Source: Phycisphaerae bacterium (GTDB lineage Bacteria; Planctomycetota; Phycisphaerae; Sedimentisphaerales; Anaerohalosphaeraceae). Taken from it: a stretch of DNA of 42,008 nucleotides. The first letter of the stretch is position 1; each line of letters opens with the position of its first letter. Shown here one piece after another: positions 39,708 through 41,892 of the stretch. A model generated the notes under the pieces. That model did no database searches and was not told the DNA's origin. It saw nothing but the letters and a program-made list of their open reading frames with translations. The stretch covers positions 1 through 42,008 of the forward strand of contig JAOUFG010000010.1 of the NCBI GenBank assembly GCA_029858345.1. Reading direction: 5' to 3'. Made by a program: the position numbers and the translations under genes.

Positions 39708-40011
39708 GGCCGTCTTGGTATTTCTATGTCGGACACTACCCACCCCCAACTTAACATCGCAACTCCGGCCGGCAACCCGAAAAACAAAAACCGGACACAG
39801 CATATCGTTCAATGCGTGACAGAAAAATATCGAAAATACGAATGATGGCCCCGGTTGACAAATACAGGTTTAGATGATATAAGTATCTTTTGAGCTGTTT
39901 GCGACATGCTGAGATTAGATTGTCGTCATCGCGACTCACAGCGCAAATCGCATTTTTAGTATGTTTTCCAAAGCAGTATTTTGAGGCCAAGGCCTTGTAA
40001 ATAAAGACTTT

Positions 40012-40096
40012 GGAGGAGTGGCCGAGCGGCTTAAGGCGGCGGTCTTGAAAACCGTTGTGCGGAAACGTACCGGGGGTTCGAATCCCTCCTCCTCCG
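40012..40096 (+). tRNA. tRNA-Ser (anticodon UGA)
   Basis: An 85-nt class II tRNA. The acceptor GGAGGAG (40012-40018) pairs with CTCCTCC (40089-40095), with discriminator G at 40096 and no encoded CCA. The anticodon loop CTTGAAA has TGA at positions 34-36. A long variable arm (TGTGCGGAAACGTACC region) and T-arm GGGGG-TTCGAAT-CCCTC complete it. It is the integration site of the adjacent element: a second 3' half of a tRNA-Ser lies at 41838-41892. Confidence 0.95.
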
Positions 40097-41299
40097 TTCA
40101 AGGACAGGCACTGACAACGACTGATTGTCAGTGCCTATTTTCTTTTCAAGAAAAGACTTATGATTTTCAATTTCTCTTTTCAGATTTTCGTTTTCTCTGA
40201 CTTTCACTGACTGGCGATGCTTATTAGGGTAAGCAGTTTGGGCAGTTTTTTGTGCAGTTTTACCCCAAATGTGTGCAGTTTTTGTGTCAGTTTTTTGGCT
40301 CTCAACAGGCAGATTATCCGTGCCGGTTTTAATTTGGACTATTTCTGTTGTTTTCGCTATATCGGGTAAGACTTCAAGGGCTGCACGTTCACTGGATTGG
40401 ACTACATGGCTGTATCTATCCATAGTCAGGGTAATAGTCGAATGGCGCGCCAAAGACTGTGCAACTCGTGGACTTACCCCGCCTTTGGTGAGATTTGTGA
40501 TAAAAGTATGTCGCAGGGCGTGAAAATCTGCATAACGTCCAGAGTCGTCAAGATATTCAACTTCGGCAAGTTTCAAGTCCTTCTGAATCATCCGGGATGT
40601 TTTGCTACTGTCGAGCTTTGGGAATATTTTGGTATTTGGGGTATCAGTTCTTTCATCCATCCATTTTTTGAGTAAATCGACAATATCCTTACGCAGTGGA
40701 ATACGTTCCCCGGCTAATACGATCTTATTTTTTAGCTCCCCCGGTTGAAGGTAATATAGGGCTTCATCTGTTATGTCATGGGCCTGTATAACGGTTTCAG
40801 GGGGCATCATTCGAGCAATCTGTTCAATCATATATGATTTACCGCTTGCCGATGCGCCATACACAATCCCTGACAGTGGCTTATCTAAAAGTCTTGAAGT
40901 CTGGACAAGATAGAGCGTCAAACACAATTCTTTTTCCCCGGCTATGCCTATCTGCTCAATATCCCTGCTGATTCGCGCAAAAAGGTCAGGGTTTTTAAGC
41001 ATTTCTAAAGCTTCATTTATGATGTTTTCGGGGCAATCATCCAGAGGGTTCTTTTCTGTCGGTTCCTGCTGCCGCTTTGCATTTAGTTGGTCGATGTTTT
41101 CAATAAATGCTCTGTCCAGCGTGTTCGTTTCCAGCCCGGTCTTTTCTGCTACGGTTTTCAGAAAAGGTGCCCGGCTTCTATGAGAATGTAGACTAATCTT
41201 ATCAACTGCAATTAGCTTTTCATCCTGAAATGCCTTAACGGTTGCTCTATCTGTTTTATTGTCAACAGGTGTGATTTCAAAAGTTACTCCATTACTCAT
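40031..41299 (-). pseudogene. Chimera: element ATPase N-terminus fused to tyrosine recombinase C-terminus
   Basis: A 422-codon open frame. Residues 1-197 look like the N-terminal and Walker A part of a mobile-element primase/helicase-type ATPase: SGIVYGASASGKSYMIEQIA (P-loop 148-155), then LQPGELKNKIVLAGER. From about 198 the sequence is the C-terminal part of a tyrosine integrase: IPLRKDIVDLLKKWMDE, GRYADFHALRHTFITNL (H260, R263), AQSLARHSTITLTMDRYSHV (H286, Y296). The first catalytic Arg, normally upstream of IPLR, is missing, as are the Walker B and downstream parts of the ATPase. The last 22 codons are antisense to tRNA-Ser (ERRRRDSNPR...). The fusion is in frame and has a GGGGGA ribosome-binding site. 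I read it as an internal deletion product, probably inactive. Confidence 0.75.
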
Positions 41300-41450
41300 G
41301 TTTTCCCCCTCGAATAGTCATTTTCACTTTTCGCTGAAAGCGTGCAATTTCAACTCCGATATGATATTGAGCTATTTCAGTTAGGTCTGCTATTTCACAG
41401 AATTTGGCCCCAGCGTTAAACCATTCCCGAAAATCCTTATATAAAGGCAC
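41292..41450 (-). CDS. 52-residue protein coupled to the chimera
   Basis: A short leftward frame starting at GTG 41450 (AAGGGAA just upstream) and ending at TAA 41292-41294. Its stop overlaps the chimera start in ATGAGTAA, an eight-base overlap that suggests real translational coupling. The peptide (MPLYKDFREWFNAGAKFCEI...) reads like an alpha-helical small protein with a possible helix-turn-helix (FCEIADLTEIAQYHIGVEIA). Small regulators in front of the replication gene are common in integrative elements. The coupling is the best evidence; the function is unknown. The 197 bp upstream (41451-41647) is AT-rich with no other gene seen. Confidence 0.45.
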   Translation of the reverse strand: MPLYKDFREWFNAGAKFCEIADLTEIAQYHIGVEIARFQRKVKMTIRGGKHE

Positions 41451-41647
41451 TTCCCTTAATCCAACGACTTATAAACTCCCCCGGGAATATCAATAGCAGT
41501 TATAAATATGTAAATCGGCTATCTATTCAATTTTTCCCACAACATGATATAAGTGGAATTAGCAATCCCGATCTGATTATGCAGAAAAGATATGACTCTT
41601 TTTACACAAAAAGAGAATTGGCGATTTGCCACAGAAACCAGCCAAAA

Positions 41648-41840
41648 TTATTTTGAGCATTCAGTCAAGGACAAAATGGCTTGCTTTACATTGGGTGGCA
41701 ATCCATCCCATTTTTCAATCAGCGTTTCCAATTCCGGGGGCAGTACAGGGGCCTCATGTGCAGTTTTTGTGTCAGTTTGATTTTGTGTATCTTGTAAGTC
41801 ATTGTTTTTACATTCGTTATGTAATTCTGGGGGCAGACTT
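41648..41840 (-). pseudogene. Integrase C-terminal tail remnant
   Basis: The minus strand reads ...TDTKTAHEAPVLPPELETLI, then EKWDGLPPNVKQAILSLTE and CSK-stop (41648-41650). A tail of the form PELxxLIxxWxxLPxxxxxAI is what I recall at the C-termini of planctomycete tyrosine integrases. No start codon precedes it, and the frame meets a TAG within the adjoining tRNA fragment. A 22-base stretch (41757-41778) coding for TDTKTAH is identical to 40272-40293 in the chimera. It is therefore a second, diverged integrase 3' end. Confidence 0.55.
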
Positions 41841-41892
41841 GAAAACCGTTGTAGGGAGACCTACCGGGGGTTCGAATCCCTCTCCTCCTCCG
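41838..41892 (+). repeat. tRNA-Ser 3'-half copy (att site)
   Basis: From CTTGAAAACCGTTGT (41838-41852) through a variable arm GTAGGG-AGA-CCTAC and the T-arm GGGGG-TTCGAAT-CCCTC to CTCCTCCG. It lacks the acceptor 5' strand and D-arm, and has two extra bases (TC) before the 3' acceptor strand, so it is not a functional tRNA. Its variable arm differs from the intact gene at 40012-40096, so it came from another tRNA-Ser allele, as expected for an attP-borne copy. Confidence 0.8.

Follow-up and report, generated by a model that had tools for sequence, protein, structure and literature searches.

The integrase gene of Myxococcus phage Mx8 contains its own attachment site, attP, and integration provides int with a new 3' end, turning IntP into IntX (PMC6070905, PMC4383910). 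In the suicidal integrases of archaea, the catalytic part is split off on integration and activity is lost (PMC8371274); according to this one review, self-disrupting recombinases are restricted to archaea. In mycobacteriophage BPs and its relatives attP lies in the repressor gene, the C-terminus of which is altered by integration, and the lost end carries a degradation tag (PMC4557955). Here we describe a locus from a Phycisphaerae bacterium (Planctomycetota; assembly GCA_029858345.1) in which the remains of an integrase gene also span attP. The window, i.e. the whole stretch of DNA that was analysed, comprises the 42,008 nucleotides (nt) at positions 1 to 42,008 of contig JAOUFG010000010.1, and close to its end a minus-strand open reading frame (ORF; 40031-41299) joins part of an ATPase to part of a tyrosine recombinase. 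The region 40011-41892 is almost certainly what decay has left, over 1.8 kb, of a mobile element that had inserted itself into tRNA-Ser. The fused gene itself is very probably explained by two components taken jointly: an in-frame deletion scar, and the anatomy of an integrase family whose genes run across attP.

The fused ORF starts with an ATG and extends over 422 codons (422 amino acids, aa) with no internal stop. A Shine-Dalgarno-like G-rich stretch (GAGGGGGAAAACATG) is located just 5' of the ATG; an earlier sequence-only reading, according to which the deletion had kept both frame and ribosome-binding site, was correct on this point. The first 200 residues (40700-41299, minus strand) are the N-terminus of an element ATPase truncated at GERI, and include the P-loop (Walker A) motif GASASGKS previously pointed out; residues 2-200 align at 57% identity with residues 3-202 of a 493-aa ATPase encoded at locus L038 of a related genome (G039). 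The deletion junction, placed by alignment to L038, lies between GER and IPLR (40699-40706). Beyond it, residues 198-396 align at 42% identity with residues 260-459 of the 548-aa L038 integrase. This catalytic-domain remnant (40310-40705, minus strand) matches the Pfam Phage_integrase profile (PF00589) at positions 69-168 of 172 only (E 9.8e-14), compared with positions 3-169 in the integrase of an intact relative. As the sequence-only reading had recognised, the HxxR motif (HALR), the second His (ARHS) and the Tyr (DRYSH) of an active tyrosine recombinase are all present and the first catalytic arginine (Arg I) is not. The hairpin Lys is missing as well, the integrase homology starting at IPLR, past both residues, and so are the ~260 N-terminal residues of the L038 integrase, with the core-binding and arm-binding domains; in the intact relative's integrase a SAM-like N-domain is matched at 92-161.

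A search of 59 related genomes with the two halves led to separate ATPase and integrase genes, which bears out the proposal that the ORF is an in-frame chimera. At L038 a Toprim-domain gene, the ATPase gene and the integrase gene follow one another on one strand, and the integrase runs into tRNA-Ser(gct). The same order and strand were found at locus L039 (genome G046), with the integrase beside tRNA-Lys; a Toprim_2 domain was detected in the upstream gene of an intact relative. The window element shares gene order and strand with both loci (identities of 49-58% for the ATPase and 45-46% for the integrase), but is a deletion remnant where their genes are intact. Compared with L038, ~2.06 kb are missing, made up of the part encoding the ATPase C-terminus, the DNA between the two genes and the part encoding the integrase N-terminus, and the distance between the att copies is 1.8 kb instead of 5.2 kb. 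Searches with the relatives' versions of the lost ATPase and integrase parts gave no match elsewhere in the window's own genome, which is 99.46% complete. Of the Toprim gene, a C-terminal remnant of the last ~50 codons persists (41292-41470, upper limit approximate, minus strand; 38% identity over 47 aa, E 2e-7); its 5' part is deleted, and its stop overlaps the ATPase start. Since the Toprim gene is truncated too, the element carries at least two deletions. The ancestral gene order would have been Toprim gene, ATPase, integrase. A ~2-kb deletion would then have reached from within the ATPase gene into the integrase gene, the frame being kept by chance, and at least one further deletion would have removed most of the Toprim gene.

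The ATPase half was detected in 9 of the 161 genomes of the order, the window genome included. The corresponding ORFs of the other eight measured 161-742 aa and carried no recombinase catalytic domain; at two loci of one genome (L114 and L119, G142) the ATPase relative lies within an ORF of 742 aa, which exceeds the forms of 493-500 aa in length. Neither the fusion nor a homologue with the same domain order was found again among the 161 genomes, and the idea that the fusion is a conserved protein was rejected for lack of recurrence. The sequence-only reading had left a choice between a plain deletion scar and a retained fusion that binds att DNA and represses excision. The open frame of 422 codons, the preserved Shine-Dalgarno-like stretch and start, and the presence of HxxR, His and Tyr would all suit such a repressor, or a dominant-negative form, yet we consider this highly improbable. 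The protein retains neither the arm-binding nor the core-binding domain and lacks the beginning of the catalytic domain, and on this ground an att-binding repressor was rejected; moreover, the adjacent Toprim gene is truncated as well, there is no second copy of the fused gene, no homologue of it turned up in the 161 genomes, and the element keeps no other recombinase to be repressed. The structure predicted for the fusion is also poor, with a predicted template modelling score (pTM) of 0.29 and a predicted local distance difference test (pLDDT) of about 40-70 in the catalytic remnant, against 93-98 for the intact catalytic domain of a relative, which resembles solved tyrosine recombinases; the fusion was modelled from a shallower alignment, with fewer sequences, and the pLDDT comparison is supportive only. 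The fusion product is thus most likely inert. Taken together, the separate genes in relatives, the absence of recurrence and the two deletions indicate decay, and the plain deletion scar is the favoured explanation.

The ends of the element provide the second component. A tRNA-Ser(tga) gene (40011-40097, plus strand, identified by ARAGORN) is restored by the element and holds attL, and its antisense supplies the final ~22 codons of the fused ORF. The sequence-only reading was right about this tRNA-derived 3' end, but the feature does not belong to the deletion: because attP sits within the integrase gene, 3' of the catalytic domain, an antisense-tRNA end is normal for this integrase family. 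The partial att copy, the orphan tail and the repeats described below, like the truncated Toprim gene, had escaped that reading. At the other end, the displaced 3' half of tRNA-Ser (41829-41892) constitutes attR; it contains a 54-nt partial att copy (41829-41882) that repeats 40035-40088 and is 87% identical to tRNA-Ser. As this partial copy marks attR, the span of the element is 1.8 kb. Adjacent to it, at 41648-41828 on the minus strand, lies an orphan integrase C-terminal tail (LPPELETLIEKWDGLPPNVKQAILSLTECSK, followed by its stop). When the element ends were joined as in a circle, the fused ORF continued through the tRNA copy into the tail with no stop, and the joined ends of L038 likewise gave a continuous integrase-tail frame. 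Between the catalytic remnant and the tRNA, an integrase linker (40098-40309, minus strand; disordered by prediction in a relative) carries P'-side repeats of 22 nt, TGTGCAGTTTTTGTGTCAGTTT at 40272-40293 and a 77% copy at 40239-40260. A repeat identical to the former was found on the other side of attP, at 41757-41778, and similar ones occur in L038 and L055; these repeats look like integrase arm-type sites. A second, weak match to the tail in the same genome (G000:C94:9522-9563, E 3.5e-4) is perhaps another old attR. Congeners hold further remnants of this integrase terminus, likewise located at tRNA-Ser (L040, G007:C99, 842-1043; L043, G005:C75), indicating that this site has been used repeatedly.

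To see how general this arrangement is, attL/attR pairs were sought by means of two profiles, one of the tail and one of the catalytic domain. The tail was in frame with the integrase in 17 of the 18 elements having both ends in hand, where chance would give one third (binomial p = 1e-7), and att was located downstream of the catalytic domain in 17/17 pairs. At least seven tRNA targets are used, in both tRNA orientations (the att repeat is the tRNA sense strand in L188, L232 and L302), and they include tRNA-Ser, Arg, Glu, Leu, Lys and Met. In intact relatives such as L038, L055 and L129 an orphan tail lies at attR and the integrase end at attL is tRNA-derived; integration thus swaps the C-terminus, and the catalytic domain stays whole. 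The tail is nearly always seen as a short ORF (median 100 codons), as it would be if it were a separate small gene whose frame match is incidental. The agreement of frame across different tRNA genes led us to reject this explanation, which we hold to be most improbable; in addition, catalytic domain and tail occur together in two ORFs, and Mx8 Int shows the same order within one annotated ORF. One further locus, L041 (G007:C34, 930-1400), in a congener of the window genome, was considered as an out-of-frame case and set aside; its linker and tail, in different frames, appear to derive from two different elements, and it fits a tandem middle att site instead.

The tail follows the pattern W..LP..I...I..L. 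No matching family was found in Pfam or PHROGs, and plasmid and phage collections yielded no convincing relative. Differences between related tails fall mostly on the third codon position (1218/613/2874 at positions one to three, for pairs that are not independent), which indicates that the tail is conserved as a protein. In an AlphaFold prediction the tail forms a hairpin of two helices (pLDDT 80-92) and is linked to the catalytic domain by ~110 disordered residues; in the predicted structure it is this linker, not a folded domain, that carries the att site. Within the order, the tail profile had matches at E up to 0.05 in 108 of the 161 genomes; in a sample of 392 genomes from across the phylum, 80 had matches at E up to 0.001. 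When genomes of bacteria and archaea were scanned, 71 tail loci emerged. Nearly all of these belong to Planctomycetota, and isolated ones bear the label Limisphaerales or that of another group; the pattern search used the closer tail set, the diverse tail alignment (A4) being too variable. Two loci, L302 (Limisphaerales) and L300, show the same tail arrangement apparently outside Planctomycetota, which suggests that it has been transferred or that it originated earlier, in related phyla.

In these genomes the tail is almost always an orphan that lies behind a piece of tRNA gene. A tRNA T-loop signature was present within 250 nt upstream of 88 of the 124 distinct tails, compared with 14.6% of random windows; downstream it was present in 17 of 118 stretches. 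In only two of the 124 was a catalytic domain found in the same ORF as the tail. These two, L214 and L237, contain the catalytic domain, a tRNA-antisense peptide and the tail in one frame, as expected for the unintegrated form, and no complete tRNA was found at either site. L214 (G459:C270, 12694-13863), the tail of which is intact, lies in a chromosomal context close to recR and dnaX-like genes, with two tRNA-Ser genes 2 kb away.

Several observations weigh against our interpretation of the fused gene and of the family. L214 is without its 5' part. L237 (JACZSJ010000035.1, 1-860) lies at a contig end, by genes of a gammaproteobacterial dnaA region, and may be a mis-join or contamination; the 5' part of its integrase was not found elsewhere in its genome. 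One of the 17 in-frame pairs, L264, has a stop and looks decayed, and the sole out-of-frame pair, L303 (Fimbriiglobus), may have decayed, contain a sequencing error or be arranged differently. Pairing was limited to elements with both ends within about 20 kb. As for the window itself, its contig stops 116 nt past attR, and the junction at 40700 comes from a fragmented assembly (198 contigs), which could accommodate an assembly chimera with a false join at about 40700. Such an artefact is nevertheless very unlikely: the missing parts are nowhere in a nearly complete genome, the frame is kept across the junction, and both halves, the att sites and the arm repeats stand in the expected order and orientation.

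A close counterpart of the Planctomycetota integrases is Mx8 Int, the record of which shows, in one annotated ORF, a tRNA-antisense-like stretch (STGLEPVLLGSF) and behind it a tail of ~90 aa. Similarly to Mx8 Int, these integrases span attP in a continuous frame, both in the window and in 17 of 18 elements. Conversely, the tail and catalytic domain of Mx8 Int match neither Planctomycetota profile, and conservation of the Planctomycetota tail extends over a phylum and over many tRNA targets. By analogy the family would work like Mx8 Int, and we do not file it as a homologous subfamily. With the SSV-type suicidal integrases of archaea it shares an att site within the integrase gene and a gene altered by integration; unlike them, the Planctomycetota elements exchange only the C-terminal tail, and the catalytic domain is not split from the N-terminal part. 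The integration-dependent immunity of BPs-type phages is likewise based on an attP inside a coding sequence and a C-terminally altered protein, but the gene that contains attP is that of the repressor and not, as here, that of the integrase.

The course of events that we favour is as follows. In the circular element the integrase gene would continue through the tRNA copy into the conserved two-helix tail. Upon integration the tail would be stranded at attR with neither promoter nor start, and the integrase would end instead in whatever peptide the tRNA gene happens to encode. We infer that the full-length integrase of the circle may favour integration, and that a weaker or altered form, devoid of its tail, may stabilise the integrated state in the chromosome. 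Whether the exchange of tails acts as a state switch, as the analogy with Mx8 suggests, appears to us evenly balanced. In an additional scenario the swap does not regulate anything: either the tail has a function, such as replication or maintenance, in the circle alone, or the arrangement is kept up solely by the overlap of arm-type sites with coding sequence. The arm-type-like repeats within coding sequence to either side of attP, and the loss of the tail in integrated copies with no obvious harm, are consistent with this scenario, while the phylum-wide conservation of the tail as a protein argues against it; we regard it as possible, if on balance doubtful.

The fusion itself is therefore ordinary decay, and the interest of the locus lies in the design behind it. 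In bacteria, accounts of self-rewriting integrases concern individual phages such as Mx8; here one conserved tail extends across a bacterial phylum, and the Planctomycetota family is, judged by its sequences, a phylum-wide variant of the attP-spanning integrase. In the literature searched, which left most subscription papers outside, we found no account of an attP-spanning tail arrangement in Planctomycetota; its novelty is unproven. The attP-spanning design explains the tRNA-derived peptides at integrase ends, and the tail offers a simple sequence marker for attR and for element boundaries in Planctomycetota. The role of the exchanged tail thereby becomes directly testable: there is about an even chance that Planctomycetota possess a phylum-wide family of tRNA-targeting integrases in which a hairpin-tail switch would report, and lock, the integration state of the element.
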